Origin: Myxococcales bacterium | GTDB lineage: Bacteria; Myxococcota_A; Polyangia; Haliangiales; Haliangiaceae | Reading direction: 5' to 3' | DNA length: 49,069 nucleotides | Assembly (NCBI GenBank): GCA_016794545.1 | Contig: JAEUJX010000126.1 | Location: 1-49,069, forward strand | Shown here: positions 28,355 to 47,191 of the stretch, in pieces | How the letters are laid out: every line of letters starts with the position of its first letter | Position numbering within the stretch: position 1 is the first letter of the stretch | Notes under the pieces: model-generated | Seen by the model: the letters and a program-made list of their open reading frames with translations, nothing else | Told to the model about the DNA's origin: nothing | The model's database searches: none | Translations under genes and position numbers: made by a program

Positions 28355-29049
<695 letters not shown>

Positions 29050-29053
<4 letters not shown>

Positions 29054-31082: not shown

Positions 31083-31101
31083 CCGATCTGTGCCCGGGTC
31101 G

Positions 31102-31140
31102 GTCACCGTCCCGTCACATTCGATACGCGGGTCCGTCACG
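31102..31140 (+). promoter_or_regulatory. Candidate Pho box array before pstS
   Basis: GTCAC occurs at 31102, 31113 and 31135, spacings of 11 and 22 bp; the fourth grid position (31124) is degenerate. A TATGGT hexamer at 31150-31155 stands 15 bp from the last GTCAC start, close to the 16 bp seen in front of phoB. This suggests an internal PhoB-activated promoter that boosts the transporter genes independently of phoB-phoR-phoU. Confidence 0.7.
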
Positions 31141-31161
31141 CAGGGTTCCTATGGTCCGGGC

Positions 31162-32244
31162 ATGACCAAGATGCTCGTGATCGGGGCGCTTTCGGCGCTC
31201 GGCCTCGTCGCCGGATGCGGCGGCAAGAAGGACCCGGATGGAGGCGGCGGAGGCGGCGCGAGCGGCGCCGGCGGCACCAGCGGAACGCCTGCGAGCGACA
31301 AGGCCACGCTCAACGCCAGCGGCGCGACGTTCCAGAAGCCGTACCAGGAGGTCGCGATCGAGGCGTTCACGAAGGCGAACCCCAAGATCACGATCAACTA
31401 CGGCGCGGGCGGCTCCGGCAAGGGCCGGCAGGACTTCGCCGACCAGGTCGCGGACTTCGCGTGCACCGACGCGCCGTACAAGGACGCCGACCTCGGCAAG
31501 GTCAAGGGCGGCGAGTTCTTCTACTTCCCGAACGTGCTCGGCGCGATCACGGTCAGCTTCAACGTCGCCGGCGTCGACAAGCTGAACCTCTCCGCGCCGA
31601 CGATCGCGAAGATCTTCCAGCGCGAGATCAAGAAGTGGAACGACGCGGCGATCGCCGCCGACAACCCCGGCGTGACGCTGCCCGACGCCGATATCGTCGT
31701 CGCGCACCGCAGCGACGGCTCGGGCACCACGGAGAACTTCACGAAGTACCTCGACAAGGCCTCGGGGGGCGCGTGGAAGCTCAAGTCGGGCTCCACGGTC
31801 GAGTGGCCCGCCGACACCCAGGCCGGCAACGGCAACAGCGGCGTCGCGCAGATCGTGAAGTCGACGAAGGGCGCGATCGGCTACGTCGACCTCTCCGACG
31901 CGAAGGCCTCGGGCCTCAAGTACGCCTCGATCAAGAACCAGGCGGGCAAGTTCGTCGATCCGACTCCCGAGGCGGTGTCCGCGTCCGGCGACGGCATCGA
32001 GGTCGACGCCAAGCTGCTGTTCAGCGCGCTCGATGCCAAGGGTGATGTCGCGTACCCGATCACCGCGCAGTCGTGGTGCATGCTGTACGCGAAGGCCAAG
32101 GACCCGTCGAAGGCCGCGGCGCTGAAGAGCTACTTCCGGTACATGCTCACCGACGGGCAGAAGCTGCTGCCCGAGATCGACTTCGCCCCGATTCCCAAGA
32201 GCCTCGCCGACAAGGCGCTGGCGCAGCTGGACAAGGTGCAGTGA
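31162..32244 (+). CDS. pstS: Phosphate-binding lipoprotein PstS
   Basis: 360 residues from ATG 31162. The lipoprotein signal MTKMLVIGALSALGLVAGCG has Cys19 in the lipobox, followed by a Gly/Ser linker. The periplasmic-binding fold carries the phosphate-contact motifs LNASGATFQKPYQEVAIEAF, INYGAGGSGKGRQDFADQ, FACTDAPYKDAD and HRSDGSGTTENFTKYL, plus WPADTQAGNGNSGVAQIV and GAIGYVDLSDA. It captures phosphate and delivers it to PstCA. Its TGA is immediately followed by the pstC start. The candidate Pho box array upstream implies strong induction at low phosphate. Confidence 0.96.
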   Translation: MTKMLVIGALSALGLVAGCGGKKDPDGGGGGGASGAGGTSGTPASDKATLNASGATFQKPYQEVAIEAFTKANPKITINYGAGGSGKGRQDFADQVADFACTDAPYKDADLGKVKGGEFFYFPNVLGAITVSFNVAGVDKLNLSAPTIAKIFQREIKKWNDAAIAADNPGVTLPDADIVVAHRSDGSGTTENFTKYLDKASGGAWKLKSGSTVEWPADTQAGNGNSGVAQIVKSTKGAIGYVDLSDAKASGLKYASIKNQAGKFVDPTPEAVSASGDGIEVDAKLLFSALDAKGDVAYPITAQSWCMLYAKAKDPSKAAALKSYFRYMLTDGQKLLPEIDFAPIPKSLADKALAQLDKVQ

Positions 32245-33120
32245 TTGCTGGACCTGCGCGGCAAGAGTGACACCGCTGACCGGGCGTTCCGCTGGATCGC
32301 CATCGGTGCGGCGGGGCTCGTGCTGCTGATCCTCGGGATGATCGCGCTGTCGATGGGCGACCGCGCGCGCCCGGTGATCGCCGAGATGGGGTTCGACTTC
32401 TTCTCGTCGACGCGCTGGTCTCCACCCGACACGCTGTACGGGGCGCTGCCGTTCATCTGGGGCACGCTGTACACCGCGCTGATCGCACTCGCGCTCGCGG
32501 TGCCGGTCAGCCTCGGCGTCGCGCTGTTCATCACGCAGGTCGCGCCGCGCTGGCTGAAGAAGCCGCTGATCTACATGATCGACCTCGTCGCGGTCGTGCC
32601 GAGCGTCGTGTTCGGCCTGTGGGGCGTGCTCGTGCTGTCGCAGCACTTCGGCCTCGGCCGCTCGTTCCTCACCGCCGGCATCATCCTGGCCGTGATGATC
32701 ACGCCGATCATCACGTCGCTCGCGCGCGAGGTCATCGAGACCACGCCGGTCGCCGAGAAGGAGGCCGCGCTCGCGCTCGGGGCCACGCGCTGGGAGATGA
32801 TCCGGGCCTCGGTATTGCCGCACAGCAAGGGCGGTCTGGTCGGCGCCGTGATGCTCGGCCTCGGGCGCGCGCTCGGCGAGACGATCGCGGCCGCGCTCGT
32901 CATCGGCTCCGCACTCGGCCAGATCACGCCGAACCCGTTCGCACCCGGAAACTCCATGCCCGCCGTGATCGCGAACGAGTGGGGCGAGGCCGACGACATG
33001 CACAAGTCCGCGCTGATCGCGCTCGCGGTGACGCTGTTCGTCATCACGATCGTCGTGAACCTGATCGCGACGGCGATCGTCCAGCGTTCGATGAGGAAGA
33101 GCCGGGGGAAGGCCACGTGA
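32245..33120 (+). CDS. pstC: Phosphate ABC transporter permease PstC
   Basis: 291 residues from TTG 32245, directly after the pstS stop; a downstream ATG would remove the first membrane helix. Six hydrophobic segments are visible, beginning WIAIGAAGLVLLILGMIALS. The permease EAA-type loop is ETTPVAEKEAALALGATRWEMI (quoted in part; the key EAALALGAT lies near residue 175) with LGRALGETIAAAL after it. The protein pairs with PstA to form the inner-membrane channel. Its TGA overlaps the GTG of pstA. Confidence 0.95.
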   Translation: MLDLRGKSDTADRAFRWIAIGAAGLVLLILGMIALSMGDRARPVIAEMGFDFFSSTRWSPPDTLYGALPFIWGTLYTALIALALAVPVSLGVALFITQVAPRWLKKPLIYMIDLVAVVPSVVFGLWGVLVLSQHFGLGRSFLTAGIILAVMITPIITSLAREVIETTPVAEKEAALALGATRWEMIRASVLPHSKGGLVGAVMLGLGRALGETIAAALVIGSALGQITPNPFAPGNSMPAVIANEWGEADDMHKSALIALAVTLFVITIVVNLIATAIVQRSMRKSRGKAT

Positions 33121-34004
33121 GCGAGCTCCGCCCCGCCCTCGACCTCCGGCGTAAGCGCACCTGGCGCTCGACCAAGAGCACCCTCATGACGGTGCTGATG
33201 GGCGCCGCCGTCGCGGTCGTGCTGATCCCGCTCGTCGCCGTGATGTGGTCCGTGATCTCGCGCGGCGCCGGCGTGATGCTCCAGAGCTTCCCGGACTTCT
33301 TCACGGCCGAGATCCCGCTGGTCTCCCGCCGTCCCGGCCCCGGCATGGGCCCGGCGATCGTCGGCACGCTGCTCGCGACCGGTGGGGCGACGCTGCTCGC
33401 GGTGCCGCTCGGCGTCCTCGGCGCGGTCTACCTCCACGAGTACGGCGCCGGCTCGAAGTTCGCCGGTGCCGTGCGGTTCATGACCACGGTGATGACCGGC
33501 GTCCCCTCCATCGTGATGGGCCTGTTCGTCTACCTGATGTGGACGATGCGCTTCGGCTACTCGGCGTTCGGCGGCGCGCTCGCCCTCGCCTGTCTGATGC
33601 TCCCGGTCGTGATCAGCTCGACCGAGCAGATGCTGAAGCTCGTGCCGAACAACCTGCGCGAGGCGTCGTACGCGCTCGGCACGACGAAGAGCCGCACCAT
33701 CCTGACCGTCGTGCTGCCGGCGGCGCTCCCCGGCATCGTCTCCGGCGCGCTGCTCGCGATCGCCCGCGCCGCCGGGGAGACCGCGCCGCTCCTGTTCGCG
33801 GTCGGGGCCGCGAGCACCTACAACCCGCACCTCTTCACCGAGGCGAACACGTCGCTGTCGCTGCAGATCTTCAGCAACGCGACGTCGTCGTTCGTCGCCG
33901 CGCAGGACCGCGCCTGGGGCGCGGCGCTGACGCTCGTGATGCTGACGTTCGCCCTCACGCTCACCGCCCGCATCTTCACCGCGAGGTTCGCGCTCAAGCG
34001 CTAG
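33117..34004 (+). CDS. pstA: Phosphate ABC transporter permease PstA
   Basis: 295 residues from GTG 33117 ([10 protein letters not shown]), overlapping the pstC stop by four bases. About six transmembrane segments are present, the first [19 protein letters not shown]. Family motifs include [61 protein letters not shown] (the EAA loop) and [13 protein letters not shown]. It is the second half of the phosphate channel. The gap to pstB is 22 bases and contains the pstB ribosome-binding site. Confidence 0.95.
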
Positions 34005-34026
34005 CTGTATGCCCGAGGAGGATCCC

Positions 34027-34911
34027 ATGGCCACCCCCGCCACCGTTCAGACCCACCGGGCCGCCGGCACGCCGCTCGACAGCCGCATCCACGTCGAGCG
34101 GCGCTCCGCGCCGTCGCTCGAGACCTCGGAGATCGTGTTCGACGTCGAGAACGCCGAGGTGTTCTACGGCGCGTTCCGGGCGGTCCGCGGCGTGTCGATG
34201 AAGATCGGCAAGCACCAGATCACCGCGTTCATCGGCCCGTCGGGCTGCGGCAAGACCACGATGCTGCGCGCGTTCAACCGCATGCACGACACCACGCCCG
34301 GCGCGCGCGTCGCCGGCAAGATCGCCTACCACGGCGTGGACCTCTACGGCCCGGAGGTCTCGGCGACCGAGGTCCGCCGCCGGATCGGCATGGTGTTCCA
34401 GAAGCCGAACCCGTTCCCGAAGAGCATCTACGACAACATCGCGTTCGGCCCGCGGGTCAACGGCGTGCGGTCGAAGGCCGAGCTCGACGCCATCGTCGAG
34501 AAGTCGCTGCGCGCCGCCGCGCTGTGGGACGAGGTCAAGGATCGCCTCCGCAACTCCGCGCTCGGCCTCTCCGGCGGCCAGCAGCAGCGCCTGTGCATCG
34601 CGCGGACGATCGCGGTCGAGCCCGACGTGGTGCTGATGGACGAGCCGTGCAGCGCCCTCGACCCGATCGCGACGGCGCGCATCGAGGAGCTCATGCGCGA
34701 GCTGAAGACGCGCTACACGATCGTCATCGTCACGCACAACATGCAGCAGGCCGCGCGCACGAGCGACCGCACCGCGTTCTTCACCGCCGAGCTCGACTCG
34801 ACCACCGACCAGCGCACCGGCGTGCTCGTCGAGTACGACTCGACGGCAAAGATGTTCTCGAACCCGAGCGACGAGCGGACCGAGAACTACATCACCGGCC
34901 GCTTCGGCTGA
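34027..34911 (+). CDS. pstB: Phosphate ABC transporter ATPase PstB
   Basis: 294 residues from ATG 34027, preceded by GAGGAGGA at 34015-34022; an ATG 18 bases upstream (34009) lies in front of this Shine-Dalgarno and is rejected. A 35-residue N-terminal extension precedes the ABC domain, longer than in enterobacterial PstB (about 257). Walker [10 protein letters not shown] is at 70-78, the Q-loop in [19 protein letters not shown], signature [16 protein letters not shown], Walker [14 protein letters not shown] and the H-loop His in [14 protein letters not shown]. It powers phosphate import and signals through PhoU. A bulged hairpin follows its stop and probably marks the end of the operon. Confidence 0.96.
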
Positions 34912-34930
34912 GAGCCCCCAACGCGCACCG

Positions 34931-34958
34931 GCCGTCCGGCTTACACCGTAAGGACGGC
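34931..34958 (+). terminator. Bulged hairpin after pstB
   Basis: GCCGTC (34931-34936) pairs with GACGGC (34953-34958), and inside it CTTAC (34940-34944) pairs with GTAAG (34948-34952) around the loop ACC. The left arm has a three-base CGG bulge. Eleven pairs form in total. It begins 20 bases after the pstB stop and 35 bases before the next gene, without a U-run, so it may terminate or attenuate rather than stop transcription fully. Confidence 0.5.
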
Positions 34959-34992
34959 GGCGCTCCGGCCGTTCCACGGGCGGAGGACCGAG

Positions 34993-36501
34993 ATGCGCCA
35001 CGTACGGATGCTCGCACTGTGCCTGTTGACCGCCTGCGGGATGGGAGGGAACAAGCGCGCCTACATCGCCGCCCCGCCGAACGCCGGCTACCCCGGGGGA
35101 GCCGCCATCGCGACCGATGGCACGAGCGGCGAGGACTACACCGACTACGGGAAGAACCCGTGGGTCGATGCGGCGAAGGACCACCTCTCGACGTTCGCCG
35201 CCGACGTGGACACCGCGTCGTACACGATCTCGCGCCGCAAGCTGAACGAGGGCACGCTGCCGCCCACCGCCGCGGTGCGCGTCGAGGAGTTCGTCAACTA
35301 CTTCAAGTACAGCTCGCCACCGCCGGCCGCGGGCTCGCCGTTCAGTGTCGTGATGGACGCCGCGCCCTCGCCGCTCGCTCCCGATCACCACGTGCTCCGG
35401 GTCAGCGTCGCGACGCGGGCGAAGTCGCAGGCGGAGCGCAAGCCGGCGAACCTCGTGTTCCTGGTCGACGTCTCCGGCTCGATGGGCTCGGCCGACAAGC
35501 TCGGCCTCGCGCAGCAGTCCCTGCGGATCCTGACGAGCAACCTCGGCCCGCGCGACTCGGTGTCGCTCGTGACCTACGCCGGCAACACGCGCGTCGTGCT
35601 GCCGCCGACCGGAATGGAGCACAGGGACCGGATCCTCGCGGCGATCGACGACCTGAGCTCTGGCGGCTCCACCGCGATGGGATCGGGCCTCGACCTCGCG
35701 TACGAGCAGGCGATGAAGGGCCTGTTGCCCGGCGCGATCTCTCGCGTGATCGTGCTGTCCGACGGCGACGCGAACGTCGGTGCGGTCGGCCACCACCAGC
35801 TGCTGTCGATCATCGAGAGCCGCGCGAAGGCCGGCGTGTTCCTGTCCACGGTCGGCTTCGGCCGGGGCAACTACAAGGACACCGCGATGGAGCAGCTCGC
35901 CGACAAGGGCAACGGCCAGGCGTTCTACATCGACTCGCCGTCGGCGGCGAAGCGCGTGTTCGCCGAGCAGCTCGGCTCGACGCTCGAGGTCGTCGCGAAG
36001 GACGTGAAGCTGCAGGTCGACTTCGACGCCTCGCTCGTCGCGAAGTACCGCCTCGTCGGCTACGAGAACCGCGACATCAAGGACGAGCAGTTCCGCGACG
36101 ACCAGGTCGACGCCGGCGAGATCGGTGCCGGCCACCAGGTCACCGCGCTCTACGAGCTCCAGCTGACGCCGTCGGGCAAGCTGTCGCCGGCACCGCTCGC
36201 GATGGTGCGCGTCCGCCACAAGGCTCCCGACGGCGACAAGGCGATCGAGTCGACGTACGCGATGACGAGCGCGCCCGCGGGCAGCTTCGACGCCGCGCCG
36301 GCGGACTTCCGGTTCGCGTTCGCGGTGTCGGCGTTCGCCGACGTGCTCCGCGGCGCCGACGAGGCGAAGGGCTGGTCGCTCGACCGGATCGCGGACGTCG
36401 CGCGCGACGCGGCGGGCAACGATCCCGATCGCGCCGAGCTGGTCACCCTCATCGGCAAGGCCCGCGCGCTGCGCGGCGAGCCGGCGAAGGTCGCCCGCTA
36501 G
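34993..36501 (+). CDS. YfbK-type VWA lipoprotein (paralogue 1)
   Basis: 502 residues from ATG 34993, with GGAGG eight bases upstream. Lipoprotein signal MRHVRMLALCLLTACG (Cys15). The YfbK-type N-terminal region holds YGKNPWVDAAKDHLSTF, DVDTASYTISRRKLNEG and VRVEEFVNYFKY (about 52-106). The VWA domain follows at about 150-330 with MIDAS DVSGS at 159-163 and GGSTAMGSGLDLAYEQAM. The C-terminal YfbK region has YRLVGYENRDI, DAGEIGAGHQVTALYE and RFAFAVSAFADVLRG. This is the three-part architecture of E. coli YfbK. It is a close paralogue of the minus-strand gene at 39475-41070. Function is unknown for the family; surface or periplasmic binding is assumed. It overlaps by four bases the convergent TonB-C gene. 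Confidence 0.9.
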   Translation: MRHVRMLALCLLTACGMGGNKRAYIAAPPNAGYPGGAAIATDGTSGEDYTDYGKNPWVDAAKDHLSTFAADVDTASYTISRRKLNEGTLPPTAAVRVEEFVNYFKYSSPPPAAGSPFSVVMDAAPSPLAPDHHVLRVSVATRAKSQAERKPANLVFLVDVSGSMGSADKLGLAQQSLRILTSNLGPRDSVSLVTYAGNTRVVLPPTGMEHRDRILAAIDDLSSGGSTAMGSGLDLAYEQAMKGLLPGAISRVIVLSDGDANVGAVGHHQLLSIIESRAKAGVFLSTVGFGRGNYKDTAMEQLADKGNGQAFYIDSPSAAKRVFAEQLGSTLEVVAKDVKLQVDFDASLVAKYRLVGYENRDIKDEQFRDDQVDAGEIGAGHQVTALYELQLTPSGKLSPAPLAMVRVRHKAPDGDKAIESTYAMTSAPAGSFDAAPADFRFAFAVSAFADVLRGADEAKGWSLDRIADVARDAAGNDPDRAELVTLIGKARALRGEPAKVAR

Positions 36502-37109
36502 CGTCGGGGCTCCGGCGCCGGCCGCTCGATCCACGGGGCGGTCTTGATCTGCGAGAGATCCGGCTTCGAGCAGTCCTTGTACGTGGGCCGGATCGACCCC
36601 ATCGCCCACGGCCCGGAGCCACGGCACGGCACGTAGTGGTCGCGGCGGCGCGGCGGAAACCCGACGACCGCGGGCATCTTCGAGCGCGTGCCCTCGAACG
36701 TGGAGAGCCAGTAGGCCGACGGCCACTCGATCTCCCACACGAGGGCCGAGCGCATCGGCTGCTTCGCGCCGTCGAGCGCCGGGGTGAACTTCAGCTTGAA
36801 CGCCTCGGCGATCGCGATCTGCTCGAGGTCGTACCCCGGCTTGTTGAGGAACTTGATCCGCGTGACCGCGCCGGTCTCGTCGAGCTCGAGGAGGAGCCAG
36901 GCCTTGGTCCACGCGTCCGACAGGATCGCGCGCTCGCTGTACGGCGGCGCCTTCGTCTTCACGAAGTTCGTCGGCTTCGGCGGTGTCGTCGACGGAGCGC
37001 GGCCCTCGATCTGGATCACCTCGCCGGGGACGTCGCGGATCGGCGGCGTGTCATCGGCGGACGCGACGGCTGACGCGGCGAACAGCGCCATCAGGGCGAG
37101 TCGGCTCAT
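36498..37109 (-). CDS. Secreted protein with TonB C-terminal-like domain
   Basis: 203 residues from ATG 37109; a GTG-type start 36 bases upstream would put 12 residues in front of the signal peptide. The signal MSRLALMALFAASAVASADD has an ASA cleavage site, so the protein is probably released into the periplasm. Residues about 60-145 resemble the TonB C-terminal fold (WLLLELDETGAVTRIKFL, IAEAFKLKFTPALDG, SALVWEIEW). Real TonB proteins keep an uncleaved N-terminal anchor and a Pro-rich spacer; here neither is evident. The C-terminal 55 residues contain two Cys (PCRGS, KDCSK) that may form a disulfide. It is the last gene of a probable minus-strand operon with the polysaccharide-lyase-like gene and VWA paralogue 2. 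Confidence 0.75.
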   Translation of the reverse strand: MSRLALMALFAASAVASADDTPPIRDVPGEVIQIEGRAPSTTPPKPTNFVKTKAPPYSERAILSDAWTKAWLLLELDETGAVTRIKFLNKPGYDLEQIAIAEAFKLKFTPALDGAKQPMRSALVWEIEWPSAYWLSTFEGTRSKMPAVVGFPPRRRDHYVPCRGSGPWAMGSIRPTYKDCSKPDLSQIKTAPWIERPAPEPRR

Positions 37110-37145
37110 GCACCACGATAGGCAGCGGAGCGCCGCCCGGGCCAC

Positions 37146-39452
37146 TCACACCCGCTCGCGGCGCCGCGACCGCCGCCACGCTCGGTGTCGCAGGAGCGCC
37201 AGCACCACGAGCGTCATCGCGATCGGCGAGCCGGGAGCGGCCTGCGCGCCGCAGCAGCCGGAGCGCGGGGAGCGCGTCTTCGCCGGCGGCGGAGCCGATT
37301 GGTGCGGGCCCGACGCCGCGACGGCTCCCTCGGCGTCGACGGTGACCGCGCACGACGCGTCGAGGCTCACCACGGCGGGACGCGCGTCGATCGAGCCGCC
37401 GCTCGCGACCTCGACGTCGCAGGCCTCGCCGGTCCGCTTCGCCGTGATGCCGGAGCTTGCCGGGGCATCGAGCACGACGTGCGTGCCGGGCTTTGCCTGG
37501 TAGCGAAAGGCCGCACCGAGCGCGAGGGGCCACACCACGGCGGCGTCGCGCACGCCGCCGATCTGCACGCCGGCCCAGCCGTCGCCGCCGATCGCCGTGG
37601 CGGTGGCCGAGTGGGCCGGATCGGTGACCGCGATCGCGTGCACCGCGCGCGGTTCGGGCCCGGGGATCTCGATGCGGAAGTCGGTCGCGTCGAACCGCGC
37701 GGCGTCGCAGCGCCCCTTCGCTCCCGTGTCCTTGAAGCAGTCCTTCAGGCCGGTGCGGCCGATCGCGGGACCACGGCCGCCGCTCTTCGCGACGGTCGCG
37801 ATCGCGAGCTTGGTCGAGCCGACCTGCTTCTCCGCGCGGCCGGCCTTCGGATCGATCGACAGGCCGCCGGCGACGCGGAACCGCAGGTTCATCGGCCGCG
37901 TGTCCGCGTCGGTCGAGGCGCGGTCGACGACGAGCAGCACGGCGTCGGTGCCGGGCGTCGAGGGGACCAGCACCAGATCGCGGATCGCATCGGGCACGTC
38001 GCTCCTGCGCTCCTGGAACTTGTACGCATCCGAGTAGTCGCAGCGCAGCGCGACGATGCCGGACCGCGTCTGCTGGGCCCAGTCCCATCCGACCTTCTCG
38101 CCCCACGCGCCCTGGCTCGGGATGTAGTCCTTCGGCAGGTGCGCCGACGCGACGGTCGGCGCGTTGCTCGTGAGCGTCGACACCGAGCCGTACGGCGACG
38201 GATCGACGATCGCGTCGTCCTTGCCGCGGGACAGCACGAAGTTGCCCGCCTTCGGCTGGCGATGATCGACGTCGAGCGCGTGGTTGCACTCGGCGACCAG
38301 CCACACCGCCCTGGCGTCCCACCGCGTGCGCGCGAACACCGTCTGCGTCGCCGGCGTCGCGTACCACGTCGGCCAGGTCTCGCGCGGCGGGATCGCCGGC
38401 TTGCCGGGCGCCGCCGCCGCGAGCGCGTCGTAGAGCAGGAAGTCCTTGTCGACGAGCCCGAGCCGGTTGAGCTCGCCCTTCGCCCACGCGCGGTCCTCGG
38501 GGCTCGCCTCGCCGAGCGCGACCGCGTCGAGCGTCAGCACGTGCGGCGCGAGGTTCGGCTGCTCGTCCTCGGTGTCCTGCGCGGCGTACACGCGATCGCC
38601 CGGGGACATGCCGTGCACGTGGCGGCGAAGCACCGCGCCGAGCCACGCGTCGATGCCCTTGACCTCGATGCCGGCGGACCTCGCGATCCGCGCCGCGAGT
38701 GCGTAGTGCGCGACCGCGAGGGGGCCGTACTGCCAGCCCTCGGGCCAGTCGCCGCCGTCGAGGATGCCGCCGGCGGCGAGCGCGGCGGCCATGTCCTTGC
38801 CCCACAGCTCGTCGGCGACGAACGCCCAGCGCTTCGGGCCGTTCTCCTCCGCGGCCTCGCCGCCCTGGGCGATCGCGATCAGCGTGGCCGCGGCGAGGAA
38901 GCCCGACTGGTAGTTCGAGCCCGGCACCCGCGCGCGATAGCCCTTCTCGGTGTACCAGTCGAGCCACGCGGCCCAGCGCTCGCGCGCCTTCAGCCGCTGC
39001 GTCGGCGTGAGCTTGTCGTGGAGCCAGTCGTACGCGAGCGCGGTGTACGGCCCGAGGTTCCGGATCGCGTAGCCCGAGTCGCGGATCGCCGCCTTGTCCC
39101 CGCCCTGCTTGTCGCCGATCTTGTCGAGGTCGTCGAGCAAGGCGTCGAAGAAGCGGATGGCCGTCTTCGCGTGCTCCGGCTTTTCGGTGGCGGCCCACGC
39201 GACGAGGCACGCCTGGAGCACCCGCGACCACGCCGAGCCCATGTACACGGCGTGGTCGTGCTCGTCGGTGGTGCGCGCCTCGTTGCACAGGTTCACGGCG
39301 CCGACGACGGGCCCCCGCTCGAGCTTCGCCATCGCCCGGAACGCCGCCTTCGTCGGCGCGTCGAGCAACATCCGCGGGTGCGGACCGGCCGGCTCGGGTG
39401 GAGCGGCGTGCGCGACGGCCGACGTCAACAGCAGGACCAGGGCAGCTCGCAC
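37146..39452 (-). CDS. Heparinase II/III-like secreted protein with MYXO-CTERM-like tail
   Basis: 768 residues from GTG 39452. A signal peptide (RAALVLLLTSAVAHA, cleavage after AHA) precedes HPRMLLDAPTKAAFRAMA, the usual opening of alginate-lyase/heparinase-type toroid domains. The helical part spans about 25-370 and includes ILDGGDWPEGWQYGPLAVAHYA, with the Trp-Pro-Glu-Gly and Tyr-Gly-Pro elements seen near the active site of this superfamily. A beta-sandwich region follows to about 700 (FARTRWDARAVWL, GNFVLSRGKDDAIVDPSPYG). The end shows GCCGAQAAPGSP, a hydrophobic stretch and RHRAWRRSRRRERV, a MYXO-CTERM-like sorting tail. It probably cleaves or binds an acidic polysaccharide at the cell surface; substrate unknown. 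It lies 22 bases after the VWA paralogue stop. Confidence 0.78.
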   Translation of the reverse strand: MRAALVLLLTSAVAHAAPPEPAGPHPRMLLDAPTKAAFRAMAKLERGPVVGAVNLCNEARTTDEHDHAVYMGSAWSRVLQACLVAWAATEKPEHAKTAIRFFDALLDDLDKIGDKQGGDKAAIRDSGYAIRNLGPYTALAYDWLHDKLTPTQRLKARERWAAWLDWYTEKGYRARVPGSNYQSGFLAAATLIAIAQGGEAAEENGPKRWAFVADELWGKDMAAALAAGGILDGGDWPEGWQYGPLAVAHYALAARIARSAGIEVKGIDAWLGAVLRRHVHGMSPGDRVYAAQDTEDEQPNLAPHVLTLDAVALGEASPEDRAWAKGELNRLGLVDKDFLLYDALAAAAPGKPAIPPRETWPTWYATPATQTVFARTRWDARAVWLVAECNHALDVDHRQPKAGNFVLSRGKDDAIVDPSPYGSVSTLTSNAPTVASAHLPKDYIPSQGAWGEKVGWDWAQQTRSGIVALRCDYSDAYKFQERRSDVPDAIRDLVLVPSTPGTDAVLLVVDRASTDADTRPMNLRFRVAGGLSIDPKAGRAEKQVGSTKLAIATVAKSGGRGPAIGRTGLKDCFKDTGAKGRCDAARFDATDFRIEIPGPEPRAVHAIAVTDPAHSATATAIGGDGWAGVQIGGVRDAAVVWPLALGAAFRYQAKPGTHVVLDAPASSGITAKRTGEACDVEVASGGSIDARPAVVSLDASCAVTVDAEGAVAASGPHQSAPPPAKTRSPRSGCCGAQAAPGSPIAMTLVVLALLRHRAWRRSRRRERV

Positions 39453-39474
39453 TGCCCAGACCTTAGCCCAAGAC

Positions 39475-41070
39475 TCAGCGAGACGCCTGACGCCCCTTGA
39501 GTGTCATCGCCTTCTCGATCAGTGAGACAAGCTCACGGCGCTCCTCGCTGTCGCCCGCCGCCGCCTTCGCCATGTCGCGGATGTCGGCCAGGTTCCAGTG
39601 CTCGGCGTCCTGACCGCCGCGCAGCACGTCGGCGAACGCCGCCGTCGCGAACGCGAACCGGAAGTCGCTCGACGAATTCGCGAACGACTCGGCGGGACCG
39701 CCGACCATCGGGAACGCGGCCTCGGTCGCCGTCTCGGCATTCGGCGCCTTGTGCCGGATTCGAACGCCGCCGAGCGGCGCCTTGCTCTGCTTGCCCTGCG
39801 GCGTCAGCTCGACCTCGTAGAGCGCGGTGACCTGATGGCCCGCGCCGATCTCGCCGGCGTCGACCTTGTCGTTGCGGAAGTCGTTGTCCGCGATGTCGCG
39901 GTTCTCGTAACCGACGAGGCGGTAGCGCGAGACCATCGCCGGATCGAAGTCGACCTGGAACTTCGCATCCTTCGCGACGACCTCGAGCGTCGCCGTCAGG
40001 TCGGTCTGGAAGACTTTGGTCGCCTCGTCGAGCGAGTCGATGTAGAAGCTGTTGCCGTTGCCCTTGTCCGCGAGCTGCTCCATCAGCGCGTCCTTGTAGT
40101 TGCCCTGACCGAAGCCGACGGTCGTCAGCGTCACGCCCTCCTTCGCACGGCCCGCGATGATCTTCAGGATCTCCTCGTGCGTGTGCGCGCCGACGTTGGC
40201 GTCGCCGTCCGACAGCACGATCACGCGGGAGATCGCGCCGGGCCGCAGGCCCTGCATCGCCTGCTTGTACGCGAGGTCGAGCCCCGAGCCCATCGCCGTC
40301 GATCCGCCGGCGCGCAGCTCGTCGAGCGCCTCGGTGATGCGCGACTTGTCGCTCGTCGGCTCGAGCACGACGCGCGTCGAGCCCGCGTACGTCACGAGCG
40401 ACACCGTGTCCTTGTCGGTGAGGTTCGCGACGAGCGTCTTCAGGGACTGCCGCAGCATGTCGAGCTTGTCGCCGGACGACATCGAGCCCGAGACGTCGAC
40501 GAGGAACACGAGGTTCGCCGGCTTGCGCTCCTGCGCCGTCTTCGCCTTCGTCGCGACGCCGACGCGCACGATGTGGCGGCCCGGAGCCAGCGGCGACGGG
40601 GCGGCGTCCATGATCACCGCGAACGGCGAGTCGTTGCCCGGCTGCGGGAAGCTGTAGCGGAAGTAGTTGACGAACTCCTCGACGCGCACGCCCGCCGGCA
40701 CCGGCAGGTTGCCCTCGGTGAGCTTGCGCCGCGCGAGCGAGTACGACGCGGTGTCGACGTCCGCGGCGAACGTCGACAGGCGGTCCTTCGCCGCCTCGAC
40801 CCACGGGTTCTTGCCGTGGTCGATGTAGCCCTCGCCGCCCAGCTGGTCGCCCCGGATCGCCTCCGTGGGCGCGGCCGATGCGTAGCCGCCCGGCGCTCCC
40901 GAGCCCGCGCCCATCGCAGCCGTGGCTCCACCCGTGTCCCTGGCGGCCTTGTCGGAGATGTAGGGCGCCGCGGTGTTCTCGTGGGCCGCGCCGCGATCCG
41001 CCTTCTTGCTACAGGCCGGCACGAGCAGGGAGCTACACAGCAGCAGGGACGACAGGGTCTTGCGCATCAT
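39475..41070 (-). CDS. YfbK-type VWA lipoprotein (paralogue 2)
   Basis: 531 residues from ATG 41070, preceded on the minus strand by AGGAGG eight bases away; a second ATG follows at once. Lipoprotein signal MMRKTLSSLLLCSSLLVPAC (Cys20), then a 55-residue low-complexity linker. The YfbK N-terminal region (YIDHGKNPWVEAAKDRLSTF, DVDTASYSLARRKLTEG), VWA domain with MIDAS DVSGS at 192-196, GGSTAMGSGLDLAYKQAM and VIVLSDGDANVGA, and the C-terminal YfbK region (YRLVGYENRDIADNDF, IGAGHQVTALYEVEL, RFAFATAAFADVLRGG) follow. More than half of the aligned residues match paralogue 1, which faces it on the other strand. It heads a minus-strand operon with the heparinase-like and TonB-C genes. Confidence 0.9.
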   Translation of the reverse strand: MMRKTLSSLLLCSSLLVPACSKKADRGAAHENTAAPYISDKAARDTGGATAAMGAGSGAPGGYASAAPTEAIRGDQLGGEGYIDHGKNPWVEAAKDRLSTFAADVDTASYSLARRKLTEGNLPVPAGVRVEEFVNYFRYSFPQPGNDSPFAVIMDAAPSPLAPGRHIVRVGVATKAKTAQERKPANLVFLVDVSGSMSSGDKLDMLRQSLKTLVANLTDKDTVSLVTYAGSTRVVLEPTSDKSRITEALDELRAGGSTAMGSGLDLAYKQAMQGLRPGAISRVIVLSDGDANVGAHTHEEILKIIAGRAKEGVTLTTVGFGQGNYKDALMEQLADKGNGNSFYIDSLDEATKVFQTDLTATLEVVAKDAKFQVDFDPAMVSRYRLVGYENRDIADNDFRNDKVDAGEIGAGHQVTALYEVELTPQGKQSKAPLGGVRIRHKAPNAETATEAAFPMVGGPAESFANSSSDFRFAFATAAFADVLRGGQDAEHWNLADIRDMAKAAAGDSEERRELVSLIEKAMTLKGRQASR

Positions 41071-41138
41071 CGAGAGTTCCTCCTGGGCCCTCTCCGACGC
41101 GCGGCCTCACGGCGAGGTCTGCAAAGCTTCGTGCTTCA

Positions 41139-41158
41139 TTGTCGTGGCCCGGCGACAA
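41139..41158. promoter_or_regulatory. Inverted repeat in a divergent promoter region
   Basis: TTGTCG at 41139-41144 pairs perfectly with CGACAA at 41153-41158, eight bases apart. It sits in the 149-base gap between the divergent starts of VWA paralogue 2 (41070) and the membrane-anchored gene at 41220. This placement suits a regulator-binding site; nothing else in the gap is distinctive. Confidence 0.4.
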
Positions 41159-41219
41159 CTCTCCACCCAAGGTTTCGCGGTCCTGGAACAACCGCGCCGG
41201 GTCGTGCGTTCAGCGCCTG

Positions 41220-41732
41220 GTGCCCCGGCTCGCCTCCACGCTCACGGCCCTGCCCCTCGTGGTCGTCGCGGCCGGGGTCGGGCTCGTCGCGGCACTCCGG
41301 CCGCCCGGTGCAGCGCACGAGCCGCCGCCGATCACCATCACCGTGACGACCGATCCGCCCCGCACCGTGACGATCGCCGAACCGCCGCCGCCCGTCGCGC
41401 TCGTGCCGCTCCGCGCGAGCACCGAGCGCGACGTCCCGGCGCCGGACCTCGACGGTGACGGCACACCGGAGCGCTTCGACGCGCAGCCCGACAGCTGCGG
41501 CACCGGCGGCTGCGTGTATGACGTCTACCTGTCGACGTCGCCGGCCCGGCGCGCGGGCGAGATCGCCGGCAAGTGGGGCTACTGGACGGTGAGCCCGCGC
41601 CGCGGCCGCCCCGCCGACCTCACGACGGCGTGGTTCCTCGGTTGCTGCACGATCGCCGACACGACCTATCGCTTCGCGCGCGGCGCGTATCGCGAGGTCT
41701 CGCACGAGACCTACGATCCGCGCACGCGCTGA
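41220..41732 (+). CDS. Membrane-anchored protein with Asp-rich calcium-type loop
   Basis: 170 residues from GTG 41220 (PRLASTLTALPLVVVAAGVG...). One N-terminal hydrophobic helix (about 8-28) acts as an anchor or signal. A Pro/Thr-rich spacer (ITITVTTDPPRTVTIAEPPP) follows. The folded part begins DVPAPDLDGDGTPERFDAQPD, where DLDGDGTPE has the EF-hand/FG-GAP type Asp spacing, and carries four Cys (DSCGTGGCVYD, LGCCTIAD). It ends ETYDPRTR. Short calcium-binding or FG-GAP-like repeats of this kind are common in exported Myxococcota proteins. No family is recognised. The start codon choice is moderate; longer in-frame readings lack a signal peptide. Confidence 0.65.
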   Translation: MPRLASTLTALPLVVVAAGVGLVAALRPPGAAHEPPPITITVTTDPPRTVTIAEPPPPVALVPLRASTERDVPAPDLDGDGTPERFDAQPDSCGTGGCVYDVYLSTSPARRAGEIAGKWGYWTVSPRRGRPADLTTAWFLGCCTIADTTYRFARGAYREVSHETYDPRTR

Positions 41733-41753
41733 CCTCTCGGCAGCACGACGATC

Positions 41754-41770
41754 AGGTCACCGAAGCGGTG
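41754..41770. terminator. Small hairpin between convergent genes
   Basis: CACCG (41758-41762) pairs with CGGTG (41766-41770) around AAG. A second, looser pair, TGACCT (41730-41735) with AGGTCA (41754-41759), overlaps the upstream stop codon. Between two convergent genes (stops at 41732 and 41776) this may end transcription from both sides. There is no U-run. Confidence 0.3.
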
Positions 41771-41775
41771 CGCTG

Positions 41776-42717
41776 TCACATCACGCGCACCGGAGCCGTG
41801 CGCGCGTTGATCAGCCACGGCTTGTCGGGCGCGCGCTTGCGGATCTTGCCGATCCGCACCCAGTAGGTCTGTCCGCGCTTCAGCACCCACCGCTCGTCGG
41901 GCTGGCGCATGTCGAGGCCGCCGTAGCTCGCGCGCTCGCCGGGCAGGTTGAGTAGCGCGACGGTGGGATTGCCGAGCTCGTCGGCCACCTGCCAGCCGTC
42001 GCCCTCGTTCGCGGGCGGCGGGCCCACGACCTGGAAGTAGACCGCGTCGCCGTCGCGCGCGAGGCTGATCGTGCGCGCGCCCGACGGAAGCTCGCCGCTG
42101 GCGATCGCGTGCGAGGGCACCGGGGCCGGTGGATCCTTGAGGTCGCTCGGCGACGGCGGTGGGATTGGCTGCACCGTGTCGGCCTTCCAGTACCACTTCT
42201 TCGCGTCGTCGAGCAGCCACGCACCGTCGAGCGCGAGGCGATCGCCCTCCTTGACGTCGGCCTTCTTCGCGTCGGGGATCTGGACGCGGATGCCGAGCGT
42301 GCCGTTGCCCTCCGTATCGTCGACCAGCCAGTGGTACGGCGATGCGACGAGCGGCGGCTTCACGCCCGCATCGGGAGCCGCGGCCATCGGGCCGGGCACC
42401 ATGATCACCGGGCCGAGCCGGCCGTACACCACGCCGCGCTCGCCGCGGCGACCGAGGTACCGCGCGCGATCGATCACCGCCTGCCACGCCGAGAACGCGC
42501 CGAGCTCCGCGATCACCTTGCCCGGATCCGGCGGCTCGACCTCGTCCGGCTTCTTCGGCGCGTCCTCGGGCGGCAGGATCATCGCGTCGGCGCGCGGCGC
42601 ATCGCCGGTGACCGCGGCCGTACCGCTGCCCTCGCCCGCCGGCGGTGGGTCCTCGCCGCGCTTGCCCTGGCACGCCGCGACGGCGAGCGCGAGGAGGACG
42701 AGCGTGCGGGTCATCAT
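41776..42717 (-). CDS. Lipoprotein of unknown function
   Basis: 313 residues from the first of two adjacent ATGs (42717). The signal MMTRTLVLLALAVAACQG has Cys16 in the lipobox. A Pro/Asp/Glu-rich linker extends to about residue 65. The rest alternates Gly-rich beta strands (VVYGRLGPVIMVPG, YHWLVDDTEGNGTLGIRVQI, GDRLALDGAWLLDD, GDAVYFQVVGPPP, WVLKRGQTYWVRIGKI), suggesting a beta-sandwich or SH3-like repeat. I do not recognise the family. The C-terminus ends ARTAPVRVM. It is followed, on the same strand, by no close gene; the next gene upstream starts 29 bases away, so it may be the last gene of a short operon. Confidence 0.72.
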   Translation of the reverse strand: MMTRTLVLLALAVAACQGKRGEDPPPAGEGSGTAAVTGDAPRADAMILPPEDAPKKPDEVEPPDPGKVIAELGAFSAWQAVIDRARYLGRRGERGVVYGRLGPVIMVPGPMAAAPDAGVKPPLVASPYHWLVDDTEGNGTLGIRVQIPDAKKADVKEGDRLALDGAWLLDDAKKWYWKADTVQPIPPPSPSDLKDPPAPVPSHAIASGELPSGARTISLARDGDAVYFQVVGPPPANEGDGWQVADELGNPTVALLNLPGERASYGGLDMRQPDERWVLKRGQTYWVRIGKIRKRAPDKPWLINARTAPVRVM

Positions 42718-42745
42718 GACAAAACGCCGCCGCGGCCGACCGTAT

Positions 42746-43405
42746 TCAGCCCGCGGCGAGCGCGCGTGCGGCGTTGAGCGCGCGCGGCAGACCGAACGGC
42801 GACGCGCGCAGCTGGAGGATCAGCAGGTCGCCCTCGGTGGAGAGGCCCGACACGTTCACGACCGGCGTCAGCGTGCCGAGGATGCCGCGGACGCGATCGT
42901 TCTCGGCGAACTTCGGGTTCTGCATGAGGTCGAGCACGATGATGTCGTCGTGCGCCTCGACGAGCACCGGCGGGCGCTTCGGCATGAACTTGGCGAGGTT
43001 GCCCGGCTTCGACAGGTCGAGCGCGCCGCTCTTGATCAGGCCCGCGACCGGCGTGAACGACTCGCCGAGCACCTTCATGGTGACGTCGCTGATCCGCAGC
43101 GTGACCTTGAACTGCGTGTCGCTGACCTCGATGCGCTCGACGCGGATCGACGCGCCCGCGCGCACGGTGGTGCCCATCAGATCCACGGTCGCGCCGACGC
43201 CGATCGCCGGCGGCCGCGGCGAGATGGTCACGTCCTGCGGCGCCTTCTTCGAGGGCGGCGTGTTCGCGATGAACCAGCGCAGCGCATCGAGAGGCACCGC
43301 GATCCGCATCCCCAGCGCATGGCGCGCCATGCTCAGCATGGTGGTGGGGTTCTTGACCATGAAGCGACCTGCGGAACGGAGCGCAGCGCGGAGCGGAAGT
43401 GCCAT
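42746..43405 (-). CDS. Conserved-looking protein of unknown function
   Basis: 219 residues from ATG 43405. There is no signal peptide. The N-terminal 45 residues are basic and amphipathic (LRAALRSAGRFMVKNP, MLSMARHALGMRIAVPLDAL). The rest has a regular beta pattern (GVGATVDLMGTTVRAGASI, VERIEVSDTQFKVTLRI, VLVEAHDDIIVLDLM) ending with helices rich in Ala and Arg. The alternating strands and basic helix could indicate a membrane-associated or lipid-binding protein, but that is inference only. Its stop is 29 bases from the lipoprotein gene downstream on the same strand. Confidence 0.7.
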   Translation of the reverse strand: MALPLRAALRSAGRFMVKNPTTMLSMARHALGMRIAVPLDALRWFIANTPPSKKAPQDVTISPRPPAIGVGATVDLMGTTVRAGASIRVERIEVSDTQFKVTLRISDVTMKVLGESFTPVAGLIKSGALDLSKPGNLAKFMPKRPPVLVEAHDDIIVLDLMQNPKFAENDRVRGILGTLTPVVNVSGLSTEGDLLILQLRASPFGLPRALNAARALAAG

Positions 43406-43453
43406 GTCACGATCGTATAGCAGTGGGCCTCACCGCCGTCGCGAGGATCGCTG

Positions 43454-45847
43454 TCAAAACAGCACGATCCGCAGCGGTGAAGCGAGGACAGCACCGGCGA
43501 CCGGCGTGCCGTCGACGATCGTCGCGAACACCACACCGCCCGGCGCGTCCTCGGGTAGCGCGACGCGTCGCAACGGATCACCGCTCCGCGGATCGAGCAC
43601 GAGCACCGAGAGCAGACCGCGGCCGTGGGCGACCACGAGCGGGCTGCCGGCCGGTCCGCGCGCGAGCGGCAGGATCGCCGGCCACTCGATCGCGTAGTCG
43701 TTGCGCGCGCGTAGCCCGCCGCCGAGCTCGTACACCGTCAGCTGCCAGCTGTACCCGAGCGGCGGCGGAGGCACGATGGGCACCGACATCGGCGGCGAGC
43801 CGGGCTCCTTCGGCGGCGGGCGGCCGTAGATCGGCGAGAGCACGCGCAGCGGCGGCTTCGCCGGGTCCGGCGGGAGCGGCGCCGGGATCGGGCCTCCCTT
43901 CACCGCGCCGGTGACGAGCTCGCCGGACGCGCGCCACGTGAGGCCGAGCCCGGGCAGCGCCGCCGCCTCGCCGGTGAGCGCCGCGATCCGCAGCGCGTCT
44001 CCATCCTCGAGCTCCACCAGCACGCCGTCCTGCGACGGCGAGATCGCCCGCACGACGCCGTCGATCGCGAGCGACCACAGCGGCAGCATGTCGAGGTCGA
44101 GCACGCGCGCGGTGAGCCGGCCGCGCTCCGCGGCGACGATCAGCGTGCGATCGCCGGCGACCACCGCGGTCGCGCGCACGATCGCACCGTCGTCGGACGC
44201 GAGCCAGGCGCGGACGCGGCCCGTCTTCGCGTCGAGCACGTACGCGCGATCGGCGGCGTGGACGATCACCGCATCGCCGCGGGCCTGCACGGCATCGAGG
44301 CTGTCGCCCTCCCACTCCCAGGCGGGCGTGCCGTCGCGGGAGGTCGCGCGCACCGTCGCCGTGCCCGGCCGGTTGCCGCGCGCTCCGCACACCACGACCT
44401 CGCGCGCGACCGCGATGGCGATCGGCTGCCCGGCTCCACATCCGTCGGTGCGCTGCCACTTCCACGCGCGGGTGCGCAGGTCGACCGCCGCGAGGCCGGC
44501 GCCCGACGTCTCGCTGGGCTGCTGCTCGAGCGGCACGGTGTAGAGCACCGCGGGCTCCACGGGATCGACGATGACCGCGCCGACGGTGTGCTTGCCGGTG
44601 TCGGGCAAGGCGATCGCCGCGCCGACGTCGAGCGGTTTCGGATCCGGCAGGTCGCGCAGCTCCGCCGGAACCGCGACGCCCGGCGTCCGGGCGGGCAGCC
44701 GCAAGACGCGCGTGTAGCGCGGCGGGAGACCGACGCGGCGCACCGTCTCGGCCGGCGAGCCGTTCCAGCGCGAGGCGATGATCGCCGTGTCGCCGAGCAC
44801 CGCGCCCTCGGACGCGAGCGGGAGGTACGCGCGCACGCCGGCGCGATCGAGCACCACCGCGGTCAGCGGCGTCGCGCGCACGAGCCGCGCATCGCCGCGC
44901 TTCGCGAGCAGCTCGCCGAGCGCGGGCAGCGCGATCGGCGACGGCGGGCCGACCAGCGAGCGCGGCCAGCTCGCCACCCCGGCGGCCGTCGAGACCTCGA
45001 GCCGATCCGGCGCACCGCGCGCCTCCCACCAGCCGCGCACGCCGTCGATCCGCCCGGTGACCTTGCCGGTCGCGCGCTCGAGCGCGAGGAGCGTGCCGCC
45101 GCTCTCGACGACGATCGCGTCTCCATCGCACGCCTCGATGGAACCGACGGACCCGATCGGCGTCGCCCACGCCGCCGCGACGCCCTTCGCTCCCTCGATC
45201 ACGCGCACGAGCCGGCCGTCGCCCCCGAACGAGAACAGCTCGCGCCCCGCGTCGCCGCAGCTCGCGATGATCGACTCGGGGGACATGCCGGCCGGCAGGT
45301 CGATCCGCGCGATCTCGTCGCCGGTGCCGGCATCGAGGATGATCGACACGCCCGCATCGGCGGTGACGACGCGGTCGTCGGTCAGCGCGATGTACGGCAG
45401 CTCGCTGCGCCACGCGACCTTGCCGTCGAGCGACACGCCGCGCGTGCCGGCCGCGGCCGCGCAGACGATCGCCTGCTCGGTGACGCCGACGATCGGCCCG
45501 TCGCACGCGGTCGGATCGCGCCACAGCACGCGGCCCGCGTCGATATCGACGAGCTCGACCGCGGGCCGCTCGCCGAGCGTGCCGTAGATCGCGGCGCGCG
45601 CGGGTCCCGGTCCAGGCACCGCCCACGGCGTCGGCAACCGGAGGGGGAACGTCACGTCGCCTGTCAGCCCCGCCGGCAGCGCGGGCTGTGGCGCCTGGCT
45701 GCGACCGATGTGCCCCATGACGTCGCCGAGCGGCCACGCCGGCGGAGGCGGTGGATACACCCACCGCGGGGGTGGCGCCTCCGGTGGGGGCGCAGGTGCC
45801 TCGCACGCGATCAGCGCGCAGAGCGCCAGCGGGACCGTGCGGTGCAC
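43454..45847 (-). CDS. PQQ-like beta-propeller lipoprotein
   Basis: 797 residues from GTG 45847. Lipoprotein signal [16 protein letters not shown] (Cys15), followed by a Pro-rich spacer ([20 protein letters not shown]). Most of the protein consists of PQQ/WD-type blades: [124 protein letters not shown], and [20 protein letters not shown], each a separate repeat. Up to about ten blades suggests two propellers or one large one. There is no PQQ-binding active site, so it is probably a scaffold or binding protein on the outer surface rather than a dehydrogenase. It lies 13 bases after the thiolase stop on the same strand. Confidence 0.82.
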
Positions 45848-45860
45848 GATCCCGTGAGTA

Positions 45861-47093
<1,233 letters not shown>

Positions 47094-47191
47094 GACCAGA
47101 ACCTCCGATTGTTCGCCGAGCTTGCGAGGCGAAATTGATGCGCGGAGGATGGCCGATCTTTCGCGCGCCGTCCACGGGCGCCATCCAGCTG

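Follow-up and report, generated by a model that had tools for sequence, protein, structure and literature searches.

Gene content of the locus

The window (the whole stretch of DNA analysed, 49,069 nucleotides) was one contig from the draft genome (8.5 Mb) of a soil-type myxobacterium, in a genus with Kofleriaceae-labelled members. An earlier note on this DNA had described four ORFs, all of which were found in the ORF list at the positions it gave: two facing genes for VWA lipoproteins and, between them, a lyase-like and a TonB-C-like gene (Table 1). The PstB protein matched TIGR00972 with 393.6 bits (cut-off 343.2), and the other pho and pst genes were named from translations and synteny, without a family scan. 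Scans of the region 34850-41900 gave no promoter-like sites and two terminator-like sites versus 1.9 expected, and both were uninformative. Among the matches listed, no treatment of this locus was found in the open-licence literature on VWA and pst, Kofleriaceae lyases, MYXO-CTERM and heparinase, or myxobacterial heparinase II.

Table 1. Genes and features of the locus (positions in the window)
Feature	Position	Strand	Description
phoB-phoR-phoU-pstS-pstC-pstA-pstB	28355..34911	+	Conserved left flank; same gene order in relatives
VWA_A	34993..36501	+	502 aa, YfbK-type VWA lipoprotein, 81 bp after pstB
TonB-C-like protein	36498..37145	-	215 aa; local neighbour outside any conserved set
Lyase-like gene	37146..39452	-	768 aa; heparinase II fold, signal-peptide-like start (by eye), MYXO-CTERM-type tail
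VWA_B	39475..41070	-	531 aa, YfbK-type VWA lipoprotein; 22 bp gap to the downstream lyase
Inverted block: lyase, VWA_B and ~100 bp upstream of VWA_B	37190..41172	-	By blastn against genome G004
Right-breakpoint ORF of low conservation	41175..41732	+	Start arbitrary; ATG frame open from 40878
Conserved right flank: g41776, g42746, g43454, acetyl-CoA acetyltransferase-like gene	41776..47130	-	By synteny; last name from translation

Orientation of the block

The block with VWA_B and the lyase matched the G004 genome in the opposite orientation (79% identity over 4022 columns), while the order of the flanks was unchanged. Its orientation was also opposite to that in other relatives, again with the flanks in order. 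Relatives with adjacent VWA genes carried them in tandem, the A copy followed by the B copy, and in G003 the complete order was pst, A, B and lyase, all in one direction. The G005 genome had a lone B-set VWA gene in the same flipped orientation as the window. In none of the seven fetched relatives that carried the two genes at most 5 kb apart was the lyase flipped relative to its own VWA gene. No breakpoint repeats of at least 12 bp were found on either strand between 36441-37300 and 41001-41850. Compared with relatives, the unit of VWA_B and lyase is turned round as a block, and the flip most likely took place in this lineage. The inverted order may also be an assembly error.

The VWA paralogues

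It had been noted that the two VWA lipoproteins, facing each other across about 3 kb, had over half of their residues in common. Accordingly, they were 66% identical over VWA_B residues 57-529 and 64% identical across all 498 aligned residues. Both contained the vWF_A (PF12450), VWA (PF00092) and YfbK_C (PF12034) regions in this order, far above the Pfam cut-off, and their lipoprotein signals were recognised by eye only. The MIDAS motif consists of DxSxS, T and D. The corresponding residues (D192, S194, S196, T258 and D288 in VWA_B numbering) were the same in all 11 aligned sequences, VWA_A among them, so that the three YfbK-type regions and the intact MIDAS sites described earlier were both confirmed. 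The structure model of VWA_B was only fair (pLDDT 69). Escherichia coli YfbK is built of these three regions in an identical order, but the genes studied here stood in tandem or faced each other, next to pst and a lyase gene. In the available part of PMC5845583, yfbK was a hit in a persister screen.

The alignment of VWA_A with the reverse complement of VWA_B, which the earlier note had proposed as a check, showed 78% nucleotide identity over 1236 columns, and the longest exact tract was 30 bp. Four-fold-degenerate sites were 69% identical versus 44% expected from composition. In the tree, VWA_A was a member of the A group (support 94/94). The A and B copies were separate in the tree and stood in tandem in G003, G008 and G014, and therefore there was no sign of recent homogenisation; VWA_A and VWA_B are old paralogues. 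The genome also had a third copy on another contig (C558), 63% identical to VWA_B, and two further copies with 44-46% identity.

Linkage of the VWA genes to the lyase and pst genes

Of 30 genomes from the window's family, 22 had a lyase match at E 1e-60. In 5 of the 22 lyase loci examined, VWA_B lay ahead of the lyase on the same strand within 100 bp; the distance was at most 85 bp in these 5 genomes, and the order was common to the window and four other genomes of its genus. The two minus-strand genes formed a tight pair, in support of this part of the earlier interpretation. A VWA gene was present within 5 kb of the lyase at 8 of the 22 loci, all in the window's genus, and was not found within this distance at the remaining 14, of which 8 ended at a contig edge within 5 kb on one side. 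Among the fetched loci, VWA genes without the lyase and lyases without a VWA gene both occurred.

At 7 of 24 fetched VWA loci, spread over four genera, and also in the window, a close-type VWA gene had pstB within 5 kb and in the same direction; at one locus, pstB was on the opposite strand. Of the other 16 loci, 8 ran into a contig end no more than 5 kb upstream, and in one of these a truncated pstB stood at the edge; the remaining 8 had no pstB within 5 kb despite more than 5 kb of upstream sequence. The VWA genes are near pst more widely than near the lyase, and VWA_A is most likely transcribed together with the pst genes.

It was possible, though we found it rather doubtful, that the VWA lipoproteins serve an envelope response to phosphate limitation and that the lyase is an unrelated gene brought near by rearrangement. 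The pstB linkage in four genera agreed with this explanation, and so did genus g5, where the lyase stood beside g41776 and away from the VWA genes at all 6 loci with both. However, the 8 loci without a nearby pstB spoke against it. Moreover, the short distance between VWA_B and the lyase in 5 genomes and the fact that both were turned round together suggested a working unit.

The lyase-like protein

The middle gene had earlier been called heparinase-like, and profile, Foldseek and VIA comparisons agreed on a heparinase II fold. Heparinase II (PL21, Pedobacter heparinus; PDB 2fuq, 3e7j) came first among the PDB matches, both by profile (E 4.6e-13) and by Foldseek (E 2.3e-24). In the VIA structure comparison, two heparinase II entries reached Z 32.5 and 31.4 over 624 residues with rmsd 4.5-4.6. 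The predicted structure (pLDDT 91) combined an alpha/alpha toroid with a beta-sandwich and matched heparinase II over the length of the chain. With another heparinase II entry, 2fut, Z was only 25.1, in the same range as with PL15, PL39, PL17 and human dermatan sulfate epimerase (Z 25-27), and because of this the choice of family among them was soft. The PL35 GAGases, PL15, PL17 and PL39 shared the two-domain fold and the presumed Asn-Tyr-His site type with the window lyase (Z 24-27), but scored below the best heparinase II entries. The window lyase itself had no Pfam or NCBIfam matches; the PL21/HepB family model NF045571 matched 12 of 22 homologues (best E 2.7e-6).

Residues N180, Y242 and H397 were invariant in 41 of 41 rows. 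H397 aligned with heparinase II His406 in the profile alignment, while N180 and Y242 were placed by motif and spacing only, since no alignment covered that stretch. When the toroid stretch alone was compared with PDB sequences in order to place His202 and Tyr257, only chance matches were obtained; a divergent Inquilinus copy had no PDB match, and a Nannocystis-type copy matched heparinase II outside the toroid stretch. The Tyr-His spacing of 155 was also that of GAGase II (PL35) and a PL17 lyase, and the Asn-Tyr spacing of 62 was longer than the 53-57 of PL35, PL12, PL17 and PL39, according to Table 4 in the accessible part of PMC12088678. The same table reported that heparinase II uses His202 and Glu205, where the window lyase had the conserved, motif-placed N180-Y181. 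Despite the similarity in whole-length fold, in the aligned histidine and in the presumed Tyr/His site, the window lyase was only 13% identical to heparinase II and differed from it in a putative surface-sorting tail and in Gln and Lys at metal-ligand positions.

The metal ligands of PL21 are His408, Asp425 and a third His. In the profile alignment, Gln399 of the window lyase occupied the His408 position, and by spacing the His403 and Asp405 positions of GAGase II corresponded to Gln399 and Lys401, so that the PL35 ligands were not kept. Position 399 was His in 26 of 41 rows, and Asp417 was kept in the window lyase; no counterpart of the third ligand was located. The H/D/D set at positions 399, 401 and 417 was intact in only 16 of 41 rows, and to judge from the residues the metal site looks degenerate. 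Since alanine at GAGase II His403 or Asp405 caused complete or substantial inactivation (PMC12088678, in the part available), the enzyme may be weak or inactive. The step further, that the protein is a catalytically dead, metal-free relative acting as a carbohydrate-binding surface protein, would explain Q399, K401 and the loss of H/D/D in most rows. However, the presumed acid/base and neutraliser residues were invariant throughout, and we regarded this as unlikely.

A C-terminal Cys motif, hydrophobic helix and Arg-rich end were recognised by eye in the window lyase and 28 other rows of 41. Among the 22 lyase homologues, 10 matched the MYXO-CTERM model TIGR03382 and 8 matched TIGR03901; the window lyase matched neither, and its tail was called from the homologues and by eye. 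Elsewhere, the genome had 8 TIGR03382 matches over the cut-off. It also encoded a myxosortase-family protease, one of 5 CPBP-type ORFs scanned from 7 places in the genome, with 106.2 bits to Mrt_core (cut-off 100); it did not reach the cut-offs set for the MrtX, MrtC and MrtP models. The signal-peptide-like start, Cys motif, helix, Arg-rich end and Mrt_core protease resembled the system in which MrtX sorts Myxococcus xanthus TraA, but the window lyase had GCC rather than the generic GCGC motif (sorting route and motif from the part of PMC11980579 available). MYXO-CTERM was absent from the heparinase and polysaccharide-lyase literature among the matches listed, and PL21, PL12, PL15 and heparin were absent from the excerpts of the Kofleriaceae polysaccharide-lyase literature.

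Proposed history and function

Taken together, we considered it fairly probable that the locus holds a two-gene unit, surface VWA_B followed by a surface-anchored polysaccharide lyase, which once lay downstream of pst and VWA_A and was turned as a block, and that it works as follows. The signal peptide would direct export of the lyase. After lipidation and cleavage by a myxosortase at the C-terminal Cys motif, type II secretion would carry the enzyme to the outer surface. There it would cleave a polysaccharide that contains uronic acid, in a beta-elimination reaction where Tyr242 and His397 would act as the acid/base pair and Asn180 would neutralise the carboxylate. VWA_B on the same surface may bind a partner or substrate via its MIDAS metal site and thereby keep the lyase near its target.

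These results indicated a myxobacterial group of heparinase II-fold lyases, probably surface-anchored, and linked the YfbK family, which is poorly understood, genomically to both pst and a lyase, so that its role becomes testable. A bolder proposal, which we regarded as improbable, was that the lyase founds a separate heparinase II-fold family with an Asn-Tyr-His site, an invariant Asn-Tyr replacing the His202 region and, in this clade, a lack of the classical metal site. Myxobacteria would display it on their surface by myxosortase, paired with a MIDAS-bearing VWA lipoprotein and with a link to phosphate supply. If this were true, a shortage of phosphate would induce the remodelling of an acidic polysaccharide on the cell surface or of prey.

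From the gene set, the earlier note had also suggested a surface complex that handles polysaccharide; as a complex of all four genes, it would have TonB-C as the energy source for uptake. The three minus-strand genes were contiguous and could share a transcript. However, the TonB-C orthologues were located on contigs other than those of the VWA and lyase genes in 10 of 10 genomes (fragmented drafts), and the 10 stretches around them (5.7-20 kb) contained no VWA or lyase match, and on these grounds TonB-C was rejected as a member of the set. Moreover, no TonB-dependent receptor was found among 20 window proteins scanned with Pfam, and the lyase and VWA genes each occurred without the other. The four-gene linkage was thus not conserved among relatives, and such a complex was very unlikely. 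The TonB-C ORF itself was present, but its domain label came from a single Pfam match below the cut-off (PF03544, E 0.0023, 18.8 bits versus 24.6). When ORFs of the stretch from G004 were compared with the other nine stretches, those other than TonB-C had only distant matches (26-32%): one ORF in L191, L193, L198 and L199, one in L195 and one in L194. These shared neighbours, at differing distances, were taken as common families. The TonB-C gene is a bystander.

Finally, an invertible switch, with two orientations of the lyase and TonB-C genes set by recombination between the facing VWA copies, was hardly credible: inverted copies lay 3 kb apart with 78% identity over 1.2 kb and the orientation varied between genomes, including the lone flipped gene of G005, but the longest identical tract was 30 bp, the copies were apart in the tree and tandem in three genomes, and no recombinase was found among 20 different window proteins scanned with Pfam (a subset of the window ORFs). 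The flipped segment was not bounded by the near-identical inverted repeats of such a switch. Because the block includes VWA_B and exact tracts were at most 30 bases, recombination between the VWA genes did not make the inversion; breakpoints, identity and tree ruled it out. A DNA switch was not indicated, and the locus looks like an ordinary rearranged one, so that a tempting story gives way to a simple, checkable history.

Among 28 other genomes, the ORF at the right breakpoint had its best match in G031 (41% over 99 of 185 aa, E 1.3e-11) and weak matches in G003, G010 and G012. A second ORF related to it was present in G000.

Organization of the VWA and lyase genes

The window was one contig (C269) of a draft genome of 8.49 Mb in 780 contigs. 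ORF calling confirmed the four ORFs of the earlier note, which had rightly observed that two VWA paralogues (VWA_A and VWA_B) faced each other around the lyase-like and TonB-C genes. The two proteins were 66% identical, and four-fold sites of their genes were 69% identical, where composition alone predicts 44%. Three further VWA copies in this genome were matched across most of their length, one of them (on contig C558) with 63% identity to VWA_B and the other two with 44-46%. Another VWA protein was encoded elsewhere in the window (23448-25103), and its relative in genome G008 (59%) adjoined a VWA_B-VWA_A tandem.

Coordinates and features of genes in the window
Feature	Position	Strand	Remarks
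RPE65-family protein	3851-5290	-	
GAF-GGDEF protein	18881-21187		
Gamma-glutamyltranspeptidase	21197-22981		
Another VWA protein	23448-25103	+	PF00092, E 3e-18; no YfbK N- or C-terminal Pfam regions
VWA_A	34993-36501	+	PF12450, VWA and PF12034 matches
TonB-C-like gene	36498-37145	-	
Lyase-like gene	37146-39452	-	768 aa
VWA_B	39475-41070	-	PF12450, VWA and PF12034 matches
Poorly conserved ORF	41175-41732	+	
g41776, g42746, g43454	41776-47130	-	Conserved block, function unknown, next to thiolase-like gene

In a tree of 31 VWA sequences, VWA_A fell into a group of nine with support (94/94) slightly below the program's own threshold, VWA_B paired with the copy from genome G004 (100/99), and the A and B groups together (18 sequences) formed one clade (100/100); the B sequences were not resolved as a single clade in this tree. 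All three genomes with adjacent A and B copies (G003, G008 and G014) carried them as a tandem on a single strand, with B following A. The fullest relative, G003, had the order phoB, phoR, phoU, pstS, pstC, pstA, pstB, VWA_A, VWA_B and lyase, followed on the opposite strand by g41776, g42746, g43454 and the thiolase-like gene. The tandem was not universal: the A copy of G012 was on another contig with no B in the 4.7 kb downstream, G006 had A and the lyase without B, and G004 had B and the lyase without A.

Probable inversion of the VWA_B-lyase block

The flanks in the window kept the order of G003, with VWA_B and the lyase reversed. A single blastn block (37190-41172) matched G004 in the opposite orientation with 79% identity. 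Since VWA_B and about 100 bp upstream of it lay within this block, the flip cannot be a product of recombination between VWA_A and VWA_B. The proposal that the two copies act as an inversion switch was not supported; their DNA identity was 78% (over 1236 columns), and their longest shared exact tract was 30 bp. No repeats of at least 12 bp linked the two breakpoint regions, and the block junctions were occupied by the TonB-C gene and the poorly conserved ORF.

The most parsimonious explanation was that the flip occurred in the lineage of the window. In its genus, the lyase and g41776 were convergent in seven of the eight other loci with both (the exception was G014), and they were convergent in G020 too. 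Some caution is due, as the window might instead retain an older arrangement: in another genus, g5, the two genes were on the same strand, like in the window, in 6/6 loci with both (L097, L099, L114, L116, L117 and L118). The window order might also stem from a misassembly. A further caution is G005, which lacked the lyase and whose lone B-set VWA gene was flipped; this may reflect another rearrangement event at this site. The region behind pst looks prone to rearrangement.

The flipped single gene of G005 (L089, 6210-7769) lay 14 bp after pstB, and a protein-kinase-like ORF (by eye) was present. In G014, the thiolase-to-g41776 block was reversed relative to the lyase (L085, 13029-19034). ArsR-, SRPBCC- and glyoxalase-like ORFs, named from their translations, separated the lyase from g41776 in G004 (L081, 14760-15968), and the content of this interval differed in other genomes.

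Gene linkage

The window and 21 fetched loci, 22 lyase loci in all, were examined at length; 13 of them belonged to the window's genus. A close-type VWA gene (at least 52% over 250 columns) was located within 5 kb of the lyase in eight loci and directly before it, on the same strand and within 100 bp, in five, all from the window's genus; 8 of the 14 loci without a nearby VWA gene ended at a contig edge within 5 kb on one side. Among 24 fetched close-type VWA loci, seven from four genera had pstB on the same strand at a distance of up to 5 kb, one had it on the opposite strand, eight had no pstB within 5 kb, and eight reached a contig end within 5 kb upstream (G028 had a truncated pstB at the edge). 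In the window, VWA_A started 81 bp downstream of pstB. The TonB-C orthologues of ten other genomes (E 1e-24 or better) were all on contigs other than those of the VWA and lyase genes, and the ten stretches of 5.7-20 kb surrounding them held no VWA or lyase match, which in such fragmented drafts shows the absence of close linkage only. Therefore, the four genes are not one unit; VWA_B and the lyase are a unit locally, and VWA-pst is the wider link. The suggested four-gene complex for handling surface polysaccharide could be retained for VWA_B and the lyase at most.

Fold and active site of the lyase

Lyase homologues were found at 41 loci, with record labels including Kofleriaceae, Myxococcales, Polyangiaceae, Deltaproteobacteria and a few others. 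The window lyase matched no Pfam or NCBIfam model. Of 22 homologues scanned, 12 matched NF045571 (heparin/heparan-sulfate lyase HepB; best E 2.7e-6) and three matched Pfam Hepar_II_III_C (best E 0.0059). The 41-row profile matched heparinase II in the PDB (E 4.6e-13). The AlphaFold2 model was good (pLDDT 91.1, pTM 0.88), and its best Foldseek match was heparinase II (E 2.3e-24). VIA-align likewise placed the heparinase II entries 3e7j (Z 32.5) and 2fuq (31.4) first, with an rmsd of 4.5-4.6 over 624 residues and 13-14% identity, followed by a PL15 lyase (26.8), PL39 (26.4), dermatan sulfate epimerase (26.3) and PL17 (25.5); another heparinase II entry, 2fut, reached only 25.1. The PL numbers were taken partly from the sections consulted of PMC12088678.

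N180, Y181, E238, Y242, H397 and R491 were invariant in 41/41 rows, and H397 aligned to heparinase II His406 (with the offset in numbering deduced from where the chain begins). By motif and spacing, N180 was assigned as the putative neutralizer and Y242 and H397 as the putative acid/base, a scheme that Table 4 of PMC12088678 gives for PL35, PL12, PL17 and PL39. By the same table, the Tyr-His spacing of 155 fits PL35 and PL17, and the Asn-Tyr spacing of 62 exceeds the 53-57 of all four families. At the metal site, the window lyase had Q399 and K401 (codons 38256-38258 and 38250-38252); its nearest relative, G004, likewise had Gln and Lys, while the presumed acid/base residues stayed invariant. 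His/Asp/Asp at positions 399/401/417 were retained in 16 of the 41 rows. According to the portion consulted of PMC12088678, alanine at such ligands caused complete or substantial inactivation of GAGase II; therefore, activity of the window lyase is not assured.

Predicted surface sorting and possible function

By eye, the lyase C-terminus had a Cys motif, then a hydrophobic stretch and finally an Arg-rich end, and the model had a helix at residues 743-767. This tail was visible by eye in 29/41 rows and absent from three rows labelled outside Myxococcota (two Inquilinus, one Mycobacterium) and the five most divergent ones; three rows were interrupted by contig ends, and L160 had no Arg end. TIGR03382 matched 10 and TIGR03901 eight of the 22 scanned homologues, and the window row matched neither. 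The window genome had eight other TIGR03382 matches over the cut-off. CPBP was found at seven places; of five ORFs scanned, one exceeded the Mrt_core cut-off and was under those of MrtX, MrtC and MrtP. By analogy with the model in the consulted part of PMC11980579, the lyase would be exported and lipid-anchored. Homologues L163, L164 and L165 (35-36%, no surface tail) came from Inquilinus limosus and from a record with the label Mycobacterium sp. KBS0706, which may be a mislabelled alphaproteobacterium.

The VWA_B model was only fair (pLDDT 69.4). Its Foldseek list began with ArnAB, followed by inter-alpha-inhibitor heavy chain 1, a Catenulispora VWA protein and pilus adhesins, matches that speak broadly for the binding of a protein or other ligand. 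In the part of the YfbK literature searched, we found no mechanism; a persister screen named yfbK as one of 37 mutants (PMC5845583, in the text consulted), and the portion consulted of another paper compared a fold with YfbK. On balance, we slightly favor a lyase at the cell surface that cleaves a uronic-acid polysaccharide by beta-elimination and has VWA_B as a surface partner. The components of the locus are of kinds already known, and the members are new. In the right flank, g42746 was 71-95% identical in fetched relatives, and g43454 had a PQQ_2 match.
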